DNA of 47,497 nt from a virus, in the IMG/VR virus record IMGVR_UViG_3300033979_000329, positions 1-47,497 of that record; one strand, given 5' to 3'. How positions within the stretch are numbered: position 1 is the stretch's first letter; every line of letters begins with the position of its first letter. The translations under genes were made by a program, and so were the position numbers. The notes beneath the pieces are model-generated. The model worked only from the letters and a program-made list of their open reading frames with translations. It had not been told where the DNA came from and did no database searches. Of the stretch, positions 2,770 to 35,322 are shown one piece after another.

Positions 2770-4011
2770 ATGGGCATGAGCGGACGGCTACTGAGGCCGA
2801 AAGGTTCTTCAGCGCCGGTGTTCACCGAAGCGGGCTACACCCGCCTGTGGTGCGTGACGGATAAATCCACAGGCAACGTCACCGGGACTGCGGAATCCGA
2901 CACCGGATTCTACGCCGTGAAGTGGTGGGACAACACCACGACGGTGTACGAGAGTGGCGACACGTTCAGCAAGTCGGCGGGGGGGAGGAAGGCGTTTGAG
3001 ATTTTCCCGTCCGATACGATGGGCGATCCAGAGGGCCAGTTCGACGGCTTCGACATTAGCGACAACGCGCTCACGCAAGTGCGTGCCGAAGATGTATCGC
3101 TGTTTGGTTCGGCTGGCTGGCCGGGCTTTTGGTATTGGACGTACCCGGCGGGAATGCAGAATTGGTTTCCGGGCACGCCCGCCGGGTACGAAGGCGGGAC
3201 AATCAGCAAAAACTCGCTATCGGCCACCGCGCTAGACCAGTTCTACGCCGACTTGGACGCAGGCGGTGGAAGACTGTTCGTTGATCGCAATCCCGGCATC
3301 GGCGCCGACACCCCGACGATTGCGACAACGAAGGGGTATACAGTGTTTGGGAGCGTGCCGCCGCAGACGACGGTCCTGCTGCCGTTCGACAGCAATTTCG
3401 ATGACGCTACGGGGGGCGCGCCGATCCCCTCATATAGTGGCGATGTGTTCATCGACGCGTCGGTAAAGAAGTACGGGGCTGGCTCACTGCGCGCGGAAGG
3501 CGGGTATCTGGAGTTCGCAGACAGCCCGGCGTTTGACATCAATTACCTTGAGCCGTTTACGATTGAAATGTGGCTGCGCATCAACGAACGCGGCAATGGC
3601 TACTGTACTGTGGCCACGAAGCGATCGGGCGTTGACTGGCAATGGCTTGTTGGTTTCAGCAATCCCGAGACGGCGAATTTTTACTTTTCTGCAAACTCCT
3701 CTGGTGGCGGTGGTGGCGCCGGCGGGCAAAACGAAGTATTTGACCCGACCGAAATGGACGAGGGCGTGTGGTATCACTACGCAATCGTCGGAGTCCCTGG
3801 CACCGTGAAGATGTATCGCAACGGCGCGGAGGTCGCATCCGGCCCCTTCGCCTCGCAGCCTAACAACGGGCAACCTGTGACACTGGGAGCGTTGGCGGGA
3901 GGAGGCGAGCCGTTTGACGGGAACATTGATGACTTTCGCGTTGTGAAAAATGCGGCAGTATATACCGCGAACTTCACCCCCCCCACCGGCCCGCTCGGAG
4001 TGTACCCGTAA
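2770..4011 (+). CDS. LamG/concanavalin-like structural protein, 413 aa
   Basis: The C-terminal half (about residues 200-410) has the pattern of a LamG-like jelly-roll domain: a long run of beta strands with 'FDSNFDDATG', 'SLRAEGGYLEF', 'FTIEMWLRIN', 'WYHYAIV', 'VKMYRNGAEV' and 'NIDDFRVVKNAAVYTANFTPP'. This arrangement is common in phage tail and capsid appendage proteins that bind carbohydrate. The N-terminal part is Trp- and Gly-rich and unlike anything I can name. It starts at an ATG four bases after the preceding stop. A receptor-binding or virion-decoration role is likely. Its stop overlaps the next start (TAATG), which links it to the sulfotransferase-like gene. Confidence 0.8.
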   Translation: MGMSGRLLRPKGSSAPVFTEAGYTRLWCVTDKSTGNVTGTAESDTGFYAVKWWDNTTTVYESGDTFSKSAGGRKAFEIFPSDTMGDPEGQFDGFDISDNALTQVRAEDVSLFGSAGWPGFWYWTYPAGMQNWFPGTPAGYEGGTISKNSLSATALDQFYADLDAGGGRLFVDRNPGIGADTPTIATTKGYTVFGSVPPQTTVLLPFDSNFDDATGGAPIPSYSGDVFIDASVKKYGAGSLRAEGGYLEFADSPAFDINYLEPFTIEMWLRINERGNGYCTVATKRSGVDWQWLVGFSNPETANFYFSANSSGGGGGAGGQNEVFDPTEMDEGVWYHYAIVGVPGTVKMYRNGAEVASGPFASQPNNGQPVTLGALAGGGEPFDGNIDDFRVVKNAAVYTANFTPPTGPLGVYP

Positions 4012-4703
4012 TGTTTTACTACTCCACCCCCAACTACAGCGTTGCCCTCAACGCGAAGGTCGGCTCAACGGCGATGGCCCGCGCGCTCATTCGGCAGTTC
4101 TATCCGCGACTGGACTGGCTGATTCGCACTGCTGCCTTTCCGGCCGGCGTGACAGAGGCAGATCGTCCGTTCCATTGGATGTGTCCCGGCAGGCGGACGC
4201 CTGACAAACCTGTGGTCCTCCTCGTCCGTGATCCTGTGGACAGGTTCATCACAGCCTGCCAGCAAGTCGGCATCAGCACGCGAAAGGCGGATGCCGCGAT
4301 TGCCTCACTGGTTGAAGACAAGCCGTTCGCGAGGTCGAAGCCCAGCGACATTACGCCCGAGCGATGGGCCGAGCAGCGAGAGCGGGCGGCCAAGCGGGTG
4401 GCGCGAATGCAGCGGCGTGACAGAAAGTGGCGGCCGGATCGGCTGCGTGCCGACGCGCATTTCTTCCACCAGTACCAGTACGCAGTCGGCCCGACAACCT
4501 GTTTCCGATTCCCTCGCGACATTGCGGCGGCGGCGGCGTTCATCGGCATCGACGCCCCTCTGCCGGAACTCAACCGGGCACGGCGGGAAAAGCCGACACT
4601 GACCAAGCAGGAGGCCGATGCGGTGCGGGCGTACTACGCGGTGGACCAAGCCCTGTTCGATGCGATCGCGCAGGCTGGATACGTCTACACGCCGCCCGCG
4701 TGA
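4011..4703 (+). CDS. Sulfotransferase-like protein, 230 aa
   Basis: Two hallmarks of PAPS-dependent sulfotransferases are visible. A P-loop-like 5'-phosphosulfate binding segment, NAKVGSTAM (residues 14-22), lies near the N-terminus right after a beta strand. The 3'-phosphate binding motif follows a hydrophobic strand as VVLLVRDPVDRF (about 68-79). The size fits a minimal Golgi-type/Sulfotransfer_2-like domain. The reaction would move sulfate from PAPS to a hydroxyl or amine, often of a sugar. The substrate is unknown; candidates are host surface polysaccharide or a glycosylated virion protein. Translation is coupled to the LamG-like gene by TAATG. No catalytic base can be assigned with certainty, so activity is inferred. 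Confidence 0.75.
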   Translation: MFYYSTPNYSVALNAKVGSTAMARALIRQFYPRLDWLIRTAAFPAGVTEADRPFHWMCPGRRTPDKPVVLLVRDPVDRFITACQQVGISTRKADAAIASLVEDKPFARSKPSDITPERWAEQRERAAKRVARMQRRDRKWRPDRLRADAHFFHQYQYAVGPTTCFRFPRDIAAAAAFIGIDAPLPELNRARREKPTLTKQEADAVRAYYAVDQALFDAIAQAGYVYTPPA

Positions 4704-5293: not shown

Positions 5294-5635
5294 ATGCCGA
5301 CGCGTATCCCTACGTTCCGTGCCACGCCGCTGCTGCGGGCGTTCCGCCAGCCCGACGACAGGCCCAACGCCTACCAGCGTGGATACACCGACCGGCGGCA
5401 CCAAGCGTGGCGGCTTGCGGTCCTGACCCGCGACGCGTGGCAGTGCCAGCGATGCGGCCGCGTCTGTGCCGACAAGCGTGAGGCACACGCCGACCACATC
5501 AGCCCGGTGGTGCATGGGACCGGCGTGTGCCGCGATGGCCGCTCCCGGTACGACGTGGATGGCGGGCAGTGCCTGTGCCACTCCTGCCACAGTCGCAAGA
5601 CAAACTCCGATCAGTGTGCGATTTCTCAGGGATGA
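5294..5635 (+). CDS. HNH endonuclease, 113 aa
   Basis: The core shows the HNH layout: a zinc pair CQRCG (Cys51, Cys54), the catalytic strand AHADHISP (Asp67-His68), and a closing CHSCHSRKT with the second zinc pair (Cys95, Cys98) and the last His of the motif. Small HNH proteins next to the terminase are a known feature of HK97-like phages, where they are needed with the terminase for specific end cleavage. Here it comes before the ParB/TET/GT genes and then the terminase, so a packaging role is likely. A homing-type nuclease is the alternative. Confidence 0.88.
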   Translation: MPTRIPTFRATPLLRAFRQPDDRPNAYQRGYTDRRHQAWRLAVLTRDAWQCQRCGRVCADKREAHADHISPVVHGTGVCRDGRSRYDVDGGQCLCHSCHSRKTNSDQCAISQG

Positions 5636-5863: not shown

Positions 5864-6499
5864 ATGAACATCCGAAACCGCGTCAAATCGCTCCGCATGG
5901 TCCCTGCCAGCGACCTCCGGCCCAATCCGAAGAACTGGCGAACCCATCCGAAGGCCCAGCAGGATGCCCTCCGGGGCGTGCTGGCCGAAGTCGGCCTTGC
6001 CGACGCCTGCCTCGCCCGCGAGTTGCCAGACGGATCCCTCATGCTGATCGACGGCCACCTGCGTGCCGAGACGCTTGGCGACGGCGACGTGCCGGTGCTG
6101 GTCCTCGACGTGAACGAGGCCGAGGCCGACAAGATTCTCGCGACGCTCGATCCGCTGGCGGCGATGGCGGATTCCGACGCGGCGAAGTTGGACGAACTGC
6201 TTCGCACCGTCGATACCGGGAGCGAGGCGTTGCAGCAGATGCTGTCGGCGACGGCGAGCGCGGCGGGGCTGTATCAAGAACTCAGCACGTCGCTCGGCAA
6301 CGACGGCGACGACCAGCCGGATGAAGATGCCGCTGGCGAGCCTCCCCCGAGCGGCGTCCGCATGGTGCAGTTGTTTCTCGACGAGTCGAACATCGGAGAG
6401 TTTCAAGACGCCTGCGCTGCGCTCGCCGAAGCATACGGCACGCACAACATAACCGACACGATTCTGGAGGCGGTGCGTCGTGCAAGTGCATCACTGTAA
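5864..6499 (+). CDS. ParB/Srx-fold nuclease-like protein, 211 aa
   Basis: Residues 12-75 match the ParB/Sulfiredoxin N-terminal domain: VPASDLRPNPKNWR at the start, then the signature GHLRAE (64-69) after LMLIDG. In true ParB the box is GxxRxxA, and this fold binds nucleotide triphosphates. The C-terminal half is acidic and helical with a DEDAAGEPPP linker. Phage ParB-like proteins of this size occur beside terminases and DNA-modification genes. Here the gene runs 20 bases into the TET-like dioxygenase gene, so the two are coupled. Its exact role is unknown; a DNA-targeting or nucleotide-dependent partner for base modification is my inference. Confidence 0.85.
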   Translation: MNIRNRVKSLRMVPASDLRPNPKNWRTHPKAQQDALRGVLAEVGLADACLARELPDGSLMLIDGHLRAETLGDGDVPVLVLDVNEAEADKILATLDPLAAMADSDAAKLDELLRTVDTGSEALQQMLSATASAAGLYQELSTSLGNDGDDQPDEDAAGEPPPSGVRMVQLFLDESNIGEFQDACAALAEAYGTHNITDTILEAVRRASASL

Positions 6500-7397
6500 G
6501 GAGAAGTTCCCGGCCGACCACCTCGCGGGAACCAAACTCGACGAGTCGCACTACGATCACCTGCTAGGCGGCGACGAACCGTGCGACGTTTTCAAGCCAG
6601 ACGGCACGCCGCTGGTCAAGTACCGCCCGCGATGGTTCGGCGAGGATTTGTGCCGGTCGGTTCTGCCAGCGTGCCGCAAGGCGGCAACGAAAACGAACAA
6701 TCGCGGCATGGCGGCTGGTGACATCAAGCAAGTCTCGCTCGGAACGCATCGGCCAATCGAGGCGCACTCAAAAACGAACTTCCGAACGATCAAGCAAGAC
6801 GGCACGATCAGCAACACCACTCGCGGCGGCGAGGTTGAAAGCGGAATCATTGGATACTTCGACCGCAGTGCGAGGTTTCCGTTTTGCCGTCAAACATCGT
6901 TCTTGATTTCGCAGGCCGCTACGTGGAAGCGTTTCCTTCCGTACATCGAACGCGCTGATCAAGGGTTCCGCGAGTTCACGCCGGATCGCTGGGCTGCACA
7001 GCGCAACTGCGCGAGTCGCACCGCGTCGGATTGGGTCATCCCGCAAAGCACCTTCACCACGGTCACCGTCAATAAGAACTTCCAGACCGCGACTCACAAG
7101 GACGCCGGCGACCTTGCCGCCGGGTTCGGCGTCATGTCGTGCCTGCGGAACGACAAGTACGACGGGGCGTATCTGGTGTTCCCGGCGTACCGCGTCGCGG
7201 TCAACTTCGACCACGGGTGCCTGTGCCTTGCGGACGTGCATGAGTGGCACAGCAACACGTCATTCACGCGGATGCGGCTCGGCTACGAGCGCATCACACT
7301 CGTCTTCTACTACCGCGAGAACATGATCCACTGCAAAGAAGCCAAAGCGGAAGTCGAGTGGGCGAAGAACAGAAAAAGAGGGGAGCCGCTCGCATAA
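6480..7397 (+). CDS. TET/JBP-family 2-oxoglutarate/Fe(II) dioxygenase, 305 aa
   Basis: The double-stranded beta-helix core carries the family motifs: NFQTATHKDAGD with iron ligands His206 and Asp208, a distal His in ADVHEWHSNT (His257, or His254), and the 2-oxoglutarate-binding Arg271 in RITLVFYYRE. The N-terminal part has TNNRGMAAG and SGIIGYFDR with a nearby Cys-Arg, as I know from phage TET-like proteins. Such enzymes oxidise the methyl of 5-methylpyrimidines in DNA, usually 5-methylcytosine to 5-hydroxymethylcytosine. The GTG start has GGAGG upstream and overlaps the ParB-like gene; the stop overlaps the glycosyltransferase start (TAATG). This order supports hydroxylation followed by glycosylation of the phage genome. 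Confidence 0.9.
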   Translation: MQVHHCKEKFPADHLAGTKLDESHYDHLLGGDEPCDVFKPDGTPLVKYRPRWFGEDLCRSVLPACRKAATKTNNRGMAAGDIKQVSLGTHRPIEAHSKTNFRTIKQDGTISNTTRGGEVESGIIGYFDRSARFPFCRQTSFLISQAATWKRFLPYIERADQGFREFTPDRWAAQRNCASRTASDWVIPQSTFTTVTVNKNFQTATHKDAGDLAAGFGVMSCLRNDKYDGAYLVFPAYRVAVNFDHGCLCLADVHEWHSNTSFTRMRLGYERITLVFYYRENMIHCKEAKAEVEWAKNRKRGEPLA

Positions 7398-8341
7398 TGG
7401 CTATATGTCTTTTCTATCTCGCAGAGCCGAGGTACGGCGGTTGGCCTACCTACACGTCGCATCTCTACAGAGGCCTCGCAGAAACAGGCAAGCGGCCAGT
7501 GCTGTTCAAGATAGGTAGCAAAACAGACGGCAGAATGCGGCCGTACGGCAGGGGGATCGAATACACAAACATCACGCTAAGCGATGCAGTTTCAATGGCG
7601 CGAAGCAACCCGTGTTTCATCACCGCAGTTGGAAAGGGATACTACGACGCCGCGTGCAGTTTGATGCTTTCGGGTGCATCCGTTTGCGTGCACGATCCAA
7701 CGGAACTGAAAGAGCCTTTTGCATCGGCACTCCCGGCGGCGAAGGTGGTTGTGATCCGTGAGTCGATGCTTTCGCACCTCCCTCATGCGAAGTTCACCCT
7801 TCATCCTTACGCGCCCCGTGGGCAGCAAGGAACCAAAGAAAAACTGGCGTGCGCGATATCAAGAATCGACCACGACAAAAACACATCCATCATCGCATCC
7901 GCGAACGAACGGCTAAAAGAGCCTGTTCAACTTTACGGCGCGATCAACCGCATCTACTCCTACTTCACGCTCGACGCGAAGCACCCAGGCTGGGAGAAGA
8001 ACTATGTCTCCTCCCCGAGCGCGAACAGCCTCTGGGCGTGTCAGAAAATCGCTTGCGGGTACAAAAAAATGGTCGATCTTTCTGTCATCAAAAAAGACGG
8101 CAGGGGAACGCAGTACACGTTCCTTGAGGCAGTGGACGCAGGATGTTCCCTGATTTTGCACGAAGCATGGGAACCGAGCGGCCTGCTTTCGCAACTAAGC
8201 CGTACCGTTCGCTGCTCCGATAGCTTGGTCGAGGAGCTTGCGAAACCGTGCAGGTTCGACAAAAAAGCCGCCCAGCAGTTGCTGCTAAATCACTGTCACA
8301 AGAAAATAGCAGCACAAACCTGCGAAGCGATAGGAGCATGA
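7397..8341 (+). CDS. GT4-like (GT-B fold) glycosyltransferase, 314 aa
   Basis: The start at the TAATG overlap gives an N-terminus with the GT-B glycine loop (GGWPTYTSHLYRGL, residues 14-27). A linker strand CAISRIDHDKN (152-162) is like the GT4 'SR...KN' element. Later YTFLEAVDAGCSLILHEAW (240-258) resembles the donor-sugar binding E-x7-E region. The gene is visibly lower in GC and more A-rich than its neighbours, suggesting recent acquisition. Directly after a TET-like oxygenase, the most likely job is to add a sugar to the hydroxymethylated base. A protein or cell-wall target cannot be excluded. Confidence 0.8.
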   Translation: MAICLFYLAEPRYGGWPTYTSHLYRGLAETGKRPVLFKIGSKTDGRMRPYGRGIEYTNITLSDAVSMARSNPCFITAVGKGYYDAACSLMLSGASVCVHDPTELKEPFASALPAAKVVVIRESMLSHLPHAKFTLHPYAPRGQQGTKEKLACAISRIDHDKNTSIIASANERLKEPVQLYGAINRIYSYFTLDAKHPGWEKNYVSSPSANSLWACQKIACGYKKMVDLSVIKKDGRGTQYTFLEAVDAGCSLILHEAWEPSGLLSQLSRTVRCSDSLVEELAKPCRFDKKAAQQLLLNHCHKKIAAQTCEAIGA

Positions 8342-8342
8342 C

Positions 8343-8870
8343 ATGGGCAAACGTGGCCCCGCCCCCGAACCGTCGATCCTGAAATACATTCGCGGCAACC
8401 CGTCGAAGGCGGCGCTGCCGACGAACGAGCCGACGCCCGACCTGCTCGACAACCTCGACCCTCCCGGGTGGATTGCCGAAGACCCGGTCGCGGTGAAGAA
8501 GTGGAACGACACCGTGCCGATGCTGCGGCGGATGCGAGTGTTCACGGAGGCCGACGTTGATGCGTGGGCACTCTATTGCCACACGTGGTCTAAATGGCTG
8601 GAGGCCCGCGACAAGTGCAAGCAGTTGGGCCGCGACAACATCACGATGGAGCCAGACCCGAACCGCACGGACGGACGGCTGCGAATCAAATGGACGCAGC
8701 CGTTTTCATGGTCGGTCGATGAACGGTCGCTGCGTGGCGACTTGCGAAGGATGCAGCAAGACTTCGGCATGACGCCAAGCAGCCGGTCACAGGTGAGCAC
8801 GCATGGCAGTGAAGAAGCAGACCCGGTTGCCGCCTACGCTGCGAAGCGACGCCGCACGCCTGGGGCTTGA
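8343..8870 (+). CDS. terS: Terminase small subunit, P27 family, 175 aa
   Basis: The N-terminus MGKRGPAPEPSILK followed by RGNPSKAALP is the hallmark of P27-family small terminases. A central helical block (residues 50-90) probably carries the DNA-binding and oligomerisation helices. It recognises the packaging site and hands DNA to the large subunit. It starts one base after the glycosyltransferase stop. Its last 68 bases overlap the large terminase gene in another frame, an unusually long overlap for this genome. Confidence 0.92.
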   Translation: MGKRGPAPEPSILKYIRGNPSKAALPTNEPTPDLLDNLDPPGWIAEDPVAVKKWNDTVPMLRRMRVFTEADVDAWALYCHTWSKWLEARDKCKQLGRDNITMEPDPNRTDGRLRIKWTQPFSWSVDERSLRGDLRRMQQDFGMTPSSRSQVSTHGSEEADPVAAYAAKRRRTPGA

Positions 8871-10416
8871 CTACTACTTCGACCCTGAAGCCGCGCAGCA
8901 CGCCGTCAACTTTTTTGAAGGCTGGCTGCGGCACAGCAAAGGGAAGCACGCGGGCCAGCCGTTTGCCCTGCTTGAGTGGCAGACGGTGATGATCGGCGAG
9001 TTGTTCGGCTGGAAGCGACTCGCCGACGACACCCGTCGCTATCGCGTGGCCTACATCTCCACGGGGAAGAAGCAGGGGAAGTCAACGCTCCTCGCGGGCA
9101 TCGGTCTGTATCTGCTTGTGATGGATGGAGAGAACGGGGCCGAGGTGTACGGGGCGGCTGCGGACCGTGAGCAAGCCTCGTTGGTCTACAGAGAAATGGC
9201 GTCGATGGTGCGGGCGTCGCCGCAACTCTCCCGCGTGCTGGAAGTCATCGACTCCCGCCGCACGATCGCCTACCGCAAAGAGGCGTCGTTCTACCGCGTA
9301 CTTTCGGCGGATGCTTTCAGGGCGGAAGGGTTGAACATTCACGGGCTGCTGTTTGACGAGCTGCACAGCCAGCGTGACCGAAGGCTTTTCGACTCGCTCC
9401 GCTACGGAGGCGCGGCGCGAGAGCAGCCGCTCCTTGTGTCGGTGACGACGGCCGGCCACGACCGCAACTCTATCTGCTGGGAGCAGTACACCTACGCCAA
9501 GGCCGTGCTGCGGGATTGGACGCACGACCCGACGTTCTTTCCTTGCATCTACGAGGCCGAGGAATCGGACGAATGGACAGCCGAGGATACGTGGCCGAAG
9601 GCGAACCCGTCGTGGGGCGTGACGATCAAACCGGAGGACTTCGCCGCCGACTGCCGCGAGGCCCAACTTTCCAACACGAAAGAAAACTCGTTCCGCCGCT
9701 ACCGACTCAACCAGTGGACGCAGCAGGACACGCGCTGGATTCGCATGGAGGCGTGGGACGCTTGCGCCTCGGAGCCGCCCGGCCCGCTCGACCGGCGGGA
9801 GTGCTGGTGCGGCCTCGACCTTGCGACCACCTACGACACCTCGGCGTTCGTCGCGGTGTTCCCCGCCCCCGACGGCACCTACGACGTTCTGTGCCGTTTC
9901 TGGATTCCAGGGGACAACGCACAGGAGCGGGAGCGAAAGGACCGCGTGCCGTACGTGTCGTGGGCGAAAGACGCGTCCACCGGCCTGACCATGACGGGCG
10001 GAAACGTGACGGACTTCGACGTGATCCGCCGGGACATTGTTCAGTTTTCCAAGCAATACAACGTGCGGCAGCTGGCCATCGATAGATGGTCGGCTACGCA
10101 GTTGTCCTTGCAACTGCAAGGGGACGGGCTCGACGTTGTAGGTTTTGGACAGGGCTACGCCAGCATGAGCCCGGCCGCAAAGCAACTGGAAAACCTCATC
10201 GCATCGGGGAAGCTCCGGCACGGTGGTAACAAAATCCTCGGATGGATGGCCGGCAACGTCAGCGTGAAGATGGACGCCGCAGGGAACATCAAACCGATCA
10301 AGCCGGAATACGGGAAAAGCGAACGGATCGACGGCATCGTGGCTTTGACGATGGCAGTCGGCATCCACGCCGCGAAGAAGCCTCAAGAACAAGCCCCCGA
10401 AATCTTCATCATCTGA
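8803..10416 (+). CDS. terL: Terminase large subunit (HK97-like), 537 aa
   Basis: The ATPase half has a Walker A-like P-loop STGKKQGKST (residues 86-95) and a Walker B with catalytic Glu in HGLLFDELHS (Asp185, Glu186), then the coupling motif VSVTTAGHD. The C-terminal RNase H-fold nuclease begins with CGLDLATTYD (Asp339), followed by LAIDRWSA and a late Asp in ERIDGIVAL. This is the Terminase_1 architecture and full length. It is the motor that cuts concatemers and pumps DNA into the prohead. The start at 8803 lies inside terS; the next gene begins four bases after its stop. Confidence 0.95.
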   Translation: MAVKKQTRLPPTLRSDAARLGLDYYFDPEAAQHAVNFFEGWLRHSKGKHAGQPFALLEWQTVMIGELFGWKRLADDTRRYRVAYISTGKKQGKSTLLAGIGLYLLVMDGENGAEVYGAAADREQASLVYREMASMVRASPQLSRVLEVIDSRRTIAYRKEASFYRVLSADAFRAEGLNIHGLLFDELHSQRDRRLFDSLRYGGAAREQPLLVSVTTAGHDRNSICWEQYTYAKAVLRDWTHDPTFFPCIYEAEESDEWTAEDTWPKANPSWGVTIKPEDFAADCREAQLSNTKENSFRRYRLNQWTQQDTRWIRMEAWDACASEPPGPLDRRECWCGLDLATTYDTSAFVAVFPAPDGTYDVLCRFWIPGDNAQERERKDRVPYVSWAKDASTGLTMTGGNVTDFDVIRRDIVQFSKQYNVRQLAIDRWSATQLSLQLQGDGLDVVGFGQGYASMSPAAKQLENLIASGKLRHGGNKILGWMAGNVSVKMDAAGNIKPIKPEYGKSERIDGIVALTMAVGIHAAKKPQEQAPEIFII

Positions 10417-34854: not shown

Positions 34855-35322
34855 GTGCAAACCTTTCTCCCCTATCCCAACACATGGGCATCGGCCCGGT
34901 GCCTCGACAATCGGCGGCTCGGCAAACAGCGCGTCGAGTGCAAGCAGATTCTGCTCACGCTCGGCGTCGATGTCGGCGAGCATCGCGGCAACCCGGCATC
35001 GCAGTGGCGGAATCATCCCGCCGTCCGCATGTGGCGTGGTCACGAACTGCCACTCGCGGAGTACGCCGAGATCATGTGCATCGTGTGGCGGCAACGCGGA
35101 TTCAAGGACACGCTGCGGGATCAATTCCGTGCTGTGTGCGGCCGGCTGTTGTCAAACAGCCGGTGGCACCACTCGCCCAACTGGCTCGGCTACGACCGGC
35201 TGCACGCATCGCATCGCAGCAACTTGCTTCGCAAGGATGCCTCGCACTACGGGCAGTTCGGATGGCAGGAGCCCGCCGACCTTCCGTACTGGTGGCCGAC
35301 GCAGCAGGAGGTGGTGGCATGA
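34855..35322 (+). CDS. Pyrimidine-dimer glycosylase-like protein (MSMEG_6728/Pyr_excise type), 155 aa
   Basis: The N-terminus TFLPYPNTWASARCLDNRRL followed by GKQRVECKQIL is the signature of the MSMEG_6728 family, grouped in databases with pyrimidine-dimer DNA glycosylases (as I remember it). 'NHPAVRMWRGHELPLAEYAEIMCIVWRQRGF' continues the fold. Phage T4 endonuclease V repairs UV damage with a related fold, so a repair or base-excision role is plausible. A GTG start four bases after the previous stop. Confidence 0.78.
   Translation: MQTFLPYPNTWASARCLDNRRLGKQRVECKQILLTLGVDVGEHRGNPASQWRNHPAVRMWRGHELPLAEYAEIMCIVWRQRGFKDTLRDQFRAVCGRLLSNSRWHHSPNWLGYDRLHASHRSNLLRKDASHYGQFGWQEPADLPYWWPTQQEVVA

Follow-up and report, generated by a model that had tools for sequence, protein, structure and literature searches.

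Genes of the cassette

The IMG/VR virus record IMGVR_UViG_3300033979_000329 was analyzed over its entire length, a linear stretch of 47,497 bases ("the window") that may be an incomplete genome. The analysis centered on a putative DNA-modification cassette at 5864-8341, whose three genes encode a ParB-like protein, a dioxygenase of the TET/JBP type and a protein of no recognized family (gene 3). A first-pass annotation had described three overlapping genes directly ahead of the terminase, and the open reading frames (ORFs) agree with this: the ParB-like and TET genes share 20 nt, the start of gene 3 overlaps the stop of the TET gene by 1 nt, and one base separates gene 3 from the gene for the small terminase subunit. 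The genes are as follows:

5864..6499, + strand: gene 1, ParB/Srx-fold-like gene (PHROG ParB-like families)
6480..7397, + strand: gene 2, TET/JBP Fe(II)/2-oxoglutarate dioxygenase, 305 aa, GTG start (Pfam PF12851)
7397..8341, + strand: gene 3, occupant of the transferase slot, 314 aa, unclassified, ATG start (placed by position; no family match)
8343..8870, + strand: TerS, terminase small subunit (Pfam Terminase_4, 6e-14)
8803..10416, + strand: TerL, terminase large subunit (Pfam TerL_ATPase and TerL_nuclease)

TerS is a linked module and stands outside the modification chemistry.

The dioxygenase and its ParB-like partner

Gene 2 is beyond doubt a genuine TET/JBP dioxygenase. It matched the Pfam family Tet_JBP (PF12851) at 9.2e-21 with 74.2 bits, well above the family cut-off of 34.9. 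The iron ligands His206, Asp208 and His257 and the 2-oxoglutarate-binding Arg271, described as intact in the first-pass annotation, are all present in the window TET and invariant in nine divergent relatives and in all 72 rows of a wider TET alignment. An AlphaFold2 model reached a predicted local distance difference test score (pLDDT) of 93.5, and its top Foldseek matches were TET2 with DNA (E 4e-12), CcTet and NgTet1 with 5-methylcytosine (5mC) DNA (1.3e-11). An enzyme of this class would hydroxylate a 5-methylpyrimidine in DNA, most likely thymine judging from the comparisons below. In one metavirome scan, at least 590 of the 600 pattern matches listed encode relatives of this ParB-linked TET group. 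On a contig from a Gammaproteobacteria metagenome-assembled genome (MAG), a single 1024-aa ORF (L107:7518-10592) combines a TET (Pfam 3.5e-21) with a P-loop domain at its C terminus. This domain has the Walker A motif GGPPASGK and is matched by an iterated kinase profile, but not by Pfam at 1e-3; the same contig encodes an amino acid:DNA transferase (ADDT).

The assignment of gene 1 to the ParB/Srx fold was upheld by matches to PHROG ParB-like families (4e-10) and to the ParB-MTase family phrog_498 (2e-12), without support from Pfam for the window copy; a pelagiphage homologue reaches Pfam ParB_N. ParB adjoins TET in 94 of 96 related metagenome loci, compared with none of the 71 loci in which TET is of the type linked to a C5-methyltransferase (two sequence-selected samples, whose counts are not independent). 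The ParB-like protein may be the DNA-binding or targeting subunit of the TET enzyme. ParB-domain genes also accompany the cytosine carboxymethyltransferase CmoX (PMC12783734). Shortly upstream of the ParB gene lies an HNH endonuclease gene (5294-5635), which is kept in most, not all, close relatives.

Gene 3 and the exchangeable slot

The label of GT4-like glycosyltransferase given to gene 3 in the first-pass annotation could not be confirmed. Gene 3 had no Pfam match even at E<=10, GT4 profiles included, and none in PHROG, NCBIfam or the PDB. The family PF20691 (TET-associated glycosyltransferase, TAGT) did not match it either, whereas it did match the genes in the same position in the related loci L013 and L016. 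In an hhalign set of E. coli GT4, GT9, GT2 and GT8 proteins with controls, gene 3 scored no better against the four GT4 proteins than against unrelated controls. Searches of phage, plasmid and 398 genomes failed or gave chance-level matches, and a profile built from a clean alignment found six true copies only. AlphaFold2, run on a shallow alignment, gave a pLDDT of 36, with only a low-confidence Rossmann-like N terminus.

The N-terminal segment FYLAEPRYGGWPTYTSHLYRGLAETG resembles, by eye, the Rossmann motif that comes first in GT-B enzymes. One of six weak genome matches to gene 3, L200, is a true GT4 protein, with which the GT-B-like motif YGGWPTYTSHLYRGL is in register at 30% identity over ~100 residues and an E value at chance level for 398 genomes. 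L197-L199, also among these six, were read by eye as GH3-type glycosidases. The GC content at third codon positions is 0.63 in gene 3, compared with 0.82 +/- 0.04 for the window genes, and the gene is therefore read as a recent import.

The strongest evidence for the role of gene 3 is its position. Relatives with 71-93% identity to the window in TET and 67-85% in TerL carry one or more other genes in its place. Gene 3 is missing from L004, L006 and L010 (TET 88-93%, TerL 67-69% identical) and from L011 (TET 82%, TerS 87%, TerL 85%). The slot holds a TAGT in L013 (65.6 bits) and L016, both at or above the cut-off, and in L004 and L010 by a sub-threshold or profile match only. In L012, where the terminase differs from that of the window, and in the pelagiphage HTVC112P it is filled by an FkbM methyltransferase. 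L029 has a GNAT acetyltransferase followed by GATase/ADDT, and L034, with which L031 and L032 cluster, has a radical SAM/SPASM enzyme and a TAGT-type glycosyltransferase. The slot set of L011 (L011:2170-5509) comprises Amidoligase_2, a phosphatase-like ORF, GATase_6, ADDT and a P-loop kinase; this set could be a route to an amino-acid-based hypermodification of thymine that starts from TET. Because the slot genes differ beside a conserved TET and terminase, we regard ParB-TET as a constant hydroxylating core to which exchangeable finishing enzymes are added. The slot holds enzymes of kinds that could decorate a hydroxymethyl base. Together with the enzyme family and the operon, this supports DNA-base hypermodification well beyond the window alone, and it is very probable that the cassette of the window serves this function.

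Among the nearest relatives of the window, the slot is most often occupied by a TAGT-type glycosyltransferase (9 of 17 loci by profile). We consider gene 3 a probable glycosyltransferase, although sequence cannot prove it one, and the sugar itself is deduced. The variety of the slot also suits another explanation, in which the DNA is hypermodified and gene 3 transfers an acyl, amino acid, phosphate or methyl group. The FkbM, GNAT-GATase/ADDT and radical SAM genes named above speak for it, as does the failure of gene 3 to match any family; the prevalence of TAGT-type genes and the GT-B-like motif shared in register with L200, its E value notwithstanding, speak for a sugar. A non-sugar group appears rather improbable to us.

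It is also conceivable that TET is a DNA or RNA regulator or a repair enzyme, that the target of gene 3 is a virion glycan or a wall polymer, and that the two are adjacent by accident. A sulfotransferase-like gene does lie close by in the window, and L003, L008 and L009 carry genes for a GDP-mannose dehydratase and an epimerase close to tail genes. Against this, distant phages whose terminases differ have retained the order ParB-TET-transferase, and one of the families filling the slot is already described in Pfam as a TET-associated glycosyltransferase. We consider this explanation very improbable. In L008 (6007-8848), and likewise in L003 and L009, the region upstream of ParB-TET-gene 3 encodes a 311-aa protein of no known family, an NAD-dependent epimerase and a GDP-mannose 4,6-dehydratase (1e-140). 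These proteins could supply a GDP-deoxysugar, for instance GDP-fucose, as donor, or they could act in the synthesis of glycans of the tail or wall. This set is absent upstream of the window cassette.

The base that is probably modified

The first-pass annotation had proposed a sugar-modified cytosine by which the phage escapes host restriction, and had recognized no C5-methyltransferase. The latter observation holds, as the window contains no match to the C5-methyltransferase family PF00145. The former stands as far as hypermodification through a TET-made hydroxymethyl pyrimidine is concerned; cytosine is less likely, given that this TET belongs to a subgroup that lacks the methyltransferase. 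PF00145 was likewise absent from all 16 nearest records (among them four complete isolates, HTVC112P, P12024L, Cr30 and DLP6), from 43 of 46 broader records and from four further complete genomes, those of LittleMunchkin, Prince, Acadian and S-CBWM1, so that all eight complete TET-bearing isolates lack it. Phage Melnitz, used as positive control, scored in the same search. PF00145 was also missing from two MAGs whose bins include a TET contig, though this binning may be wrong. Cytosine was rejected as the default base on the grounds of this distribution.

The genes around TET divide in the same way. A C5-methyltransferase occurs near TET in 0 of the 96 ParB-type loci, versus 64 of the 71 loci that the Melnitz TET retrieved, and ADDT in 46 of 96 versus 0 of 71 (Fisher p 4e-14; loci not independent). 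ADDT enzymes are known from 5-hydroxymethyluracil pathways. In the tree, the 14 rows of C5-linked TETs make up a clade of their own with 100/100 support, and the window TET groups with the ParB-linked TETs. The lack of the methyltransferase and the link to ADDT together suggest thymine as the substrate, and the missing methyl donor then needs no hidden gene, because thymine already carries a 5-methyl group. A P-loop kinase alone does not mark thymine, since it is found in both TET groups. Synthesis of 5-hydroxymethyldeoxyuridine (5hmdU) at the nucleotide level by a thymidylate-synthase homologue was also considered and rejected for the window, where no thymidylate-synthase-like gene was found; PF00303 occurred only in Cr30 and, below threshold, in P12024L.

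The two groups also differ at one active-site position. Residue 279 of the window TET aligns with His1904 of TET2, a presumed 5mC contact. Position 279 is Arg in 51 of 51 ParB-clade and 4 of 4 T4-like sequences, Asp in 13 of 14 rows of the C5 clade, and Leu in three actinophage TETs. As a hydrogen-bond donor, Arg would suit the O4 carbonyl of thymine, and Asp, as an acceptor, the amino group of cytosine. Asp211, at a further presumed contact position, aligns with N1387 of TET2 and D234 of NgTet1 and is common to the ParB and C5-linked clades.

The same cassette could instead act on 5mC supplied by the host or by an unseen phage C5-methyltransferase, in which case TET would make 5-hydroxymethylcytosine and gene 3 would glycosylate it. 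To our knowledge, the phage TETs characterized so far oxidize 5mC, as Burke et al. reportedly described in 2021. The best-matching solved structures of the TET model are also 5mC enzymes, Asp211 is kept in both clades, and the incompleteness that the record may have could hide a methyltransferase. Against these points, the eight complete isolates and 59 of the 62 related records lack PF00145. Every host would have to supply 5mC, and two MAGs with a TET contig lack the enzyme. ParB-linked and C5-linked TETs also part from each other, both in the tree and in the residue at position 279. We consider 5mC an unlikely substrate in this form of the cassette and, from the sequence comparisons, favor thymine over it with some confidence.

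Several observations weigh against a thymine-directed cassette with a sugar-transferring gene 3. PF00145 is present in 3 of the 46 broader records, and metavirome records are mostly fragments, so the absence of the C5-methyltransferase can be overstated. A P-loop kinase was also found in 27 of the 71 C5-linked loci. The argument from position 279 depends on presumed base contacts in the TET2 and NgTet1 structures, and the actinophage TETs, with Leu there, are very distant (branch 5.45), so the window enzyme may not share their chemistry. Neither a kinase nor ADDT lies beside the TET of the window, and gene 3 has no recognized fold or family.

Possible link to packaging and proposed mechanism

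Downstream of the cassette, a terminase is encoded within 6.5 kb in all 17 loci of the window clade, in 42 of 79 broader loci (37 of 60 with room) and in 5 of 9 isolates, versus 0 of 71 C5-linked TET loci (30 with room). The terminases beside ParB-TET cassettes fall in different Pfam terminase families. Modification just ahead of packaging would be a natural reading of this arrangement.

We propose that the cassette is a post-replicative DNA-base hypermodification unit, set in the same orientation as the packaging genes and close against them. The ParB-like protein would bind phage DNA and direct TET, which would hydroxylate a DNA pyrimidine at its 5-methyl group, most likely converting thymine into 5-hydroxymethyluracil with no need for a methyltransferase. 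JBP enzymes hydroxylate thymine in the synthesis of base J. Gene 3, to judge by its position, would then cap the hydroxyl, most likely with a sugar; related phages would place different chemistries on the same hydroxymethyl base by exchange of the slot. The finished DNA would be packaged and may resist host nucleases; a sugar-capped base would disguise phage DNA from the host. This chemistry we infer from comparative data, and the model as a whole we judge slightly more probable than not.

A broader proposal, which we advance tentatively, is that ParB-coupled phage TETs are thymine hydroxylases, a prokaryotic counterpart of JBP that makes 5-hydroxymethyluracil in finished DNA. An exchangeable transferase slot (sugars, amino acids via kinase/ADDT, methyl groups) would build varied thymine hypermodifications coupled to packaging, and the version in the window would use a new glycosyltransferase family. 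The large ParB-linked TET group free of C5-methyltransferase, with its fixed residue difference at position 279 and its relatives in cultured Mycobacterium, Gordonia and Nonlabens phages, makes the existence of prokaryotic JBP-type thymine hydroxylases directly testable. Within the swappable slot there may be many DNA base chemistries that are new, of interest to studies of restriction evasion and as a source of DNA-writing enzymes.

Other genes in the window

Three further genes of the window were noted:

993-1916: papain-like motifs seen by eye (GSCVGWGAS ... NSWGD), no convincing family match
4011-4703: sulfotransferase-like protein, 17.1 bits where the Pfam cut-off is 22
34855-35322: pyrimidine dimer DNA glycosylase, matching Pyr_excise at 4.4e-19

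Comparison with known systems

In the base J pathway of kinetoplastids, the thymine hydroxylases JBP1/2 act together with the J glucosyltransferase. The window would follow the same two-step logic if its substrate is thymine; it differs in having a phage enzyme, a ParB partner and a gene 3 that is not a recognized relative. Thymidine hypermodification via 5hmdU is reportedly found in phages M6 and ViI, in work attributed to Lee et al. from 2018 and 2022 and cited in PMC11955845. Systems of this type have ADDT and P-loop kinase families in common with the relatives of the window, but make 5hmdU at the nucleotide level with a thymidylate-synthase homologue, of which the window has none.

The TETs linked to a C5-methyltransferase, such as that of the Methylophilales phage Melnitz, are presumably the type characterized by Burke et al. 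in 2021. They resemble the window in the TET/JBP family, the iron ligands and the hypermodification-type genes nearby. In contrast to the window, they have the methyltransferase within 3 kb in 64 of 71 loci, never a ParB gene, a separate clade and Asp at position 279. Nonlabens phage P12024L has, like the window, a TET gene followed by a transferase gene (PF20691) and no PF00145, but no ParB partner was found in it, the transferase is of the TAGT family, and a small N6_N4 DNA methyltransferase gene (N6_N4_Mtase, L023:9553-10188) comes after the TET and TAGT genes. Pelagiphage HTVC112P is like the window in that ParB adjoins TET ahead of the terminase without a C5-methyltransferase; its TET is 40% identical to that of the window, and the FkbM methyltransferase stands in place of gene 3.

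Cultured actinophages provide the fullest parallel in gene order. Genomes of Mycobacterium and Gordonia phages begin with ParB, TET, ADDT or TAGT, P-loop kinase and terminase, and one actinophage record labels its TET 'thymidine hydroxylase'. The ParB-TET-aGPT/ADDT-kinase-terminase blocks of Tonitrus, LittleMunchkin, Prince and Acadian run, like the window, from ParB through TET and one or more modification enzymes to the terminase, again without a C5-methyltransferase. They differ in that their TET is only 19% identical to that of the window, with Leu instead of Arg at position 279, and in that a P-loop kinase and ADDT or TAGT are added where the window has one unclassified gene. The order is ParB-TET-TAGT-PIG-L-kinase in Acadian and ParB-TET-ADDT-kinase in Prince and LittleMunchkin. 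Actinophage gp2 genes (L114:785-1759, L115:813-1691 and others) carry the phrog_6059 and RefSeq name 'queuine tRNA-ribosyltransferase'. Those of L114 and L115 match Tet_JBP at 5.5e-6 and 1.4e-4, short of the Pfam cut-off, and keep the TET iron and 2-oxoglutarate residues; the phrog_6059 label is probably a database misannotation.

For the Rhodococcus equi phage Tonitrus, a five-gene thymidine hypermodification system was proposed in the genome announcement (PMC11955845). Because cultured actinophages carry the same gene order and thymidine hypermodification has been proposed in print, this kind of cassette is already known. New here are the single unclassified capping gene with no kinase adjacent to it, the evidence that the slot is swappable, and the clear separation of these TETs from the C5-linked ones.

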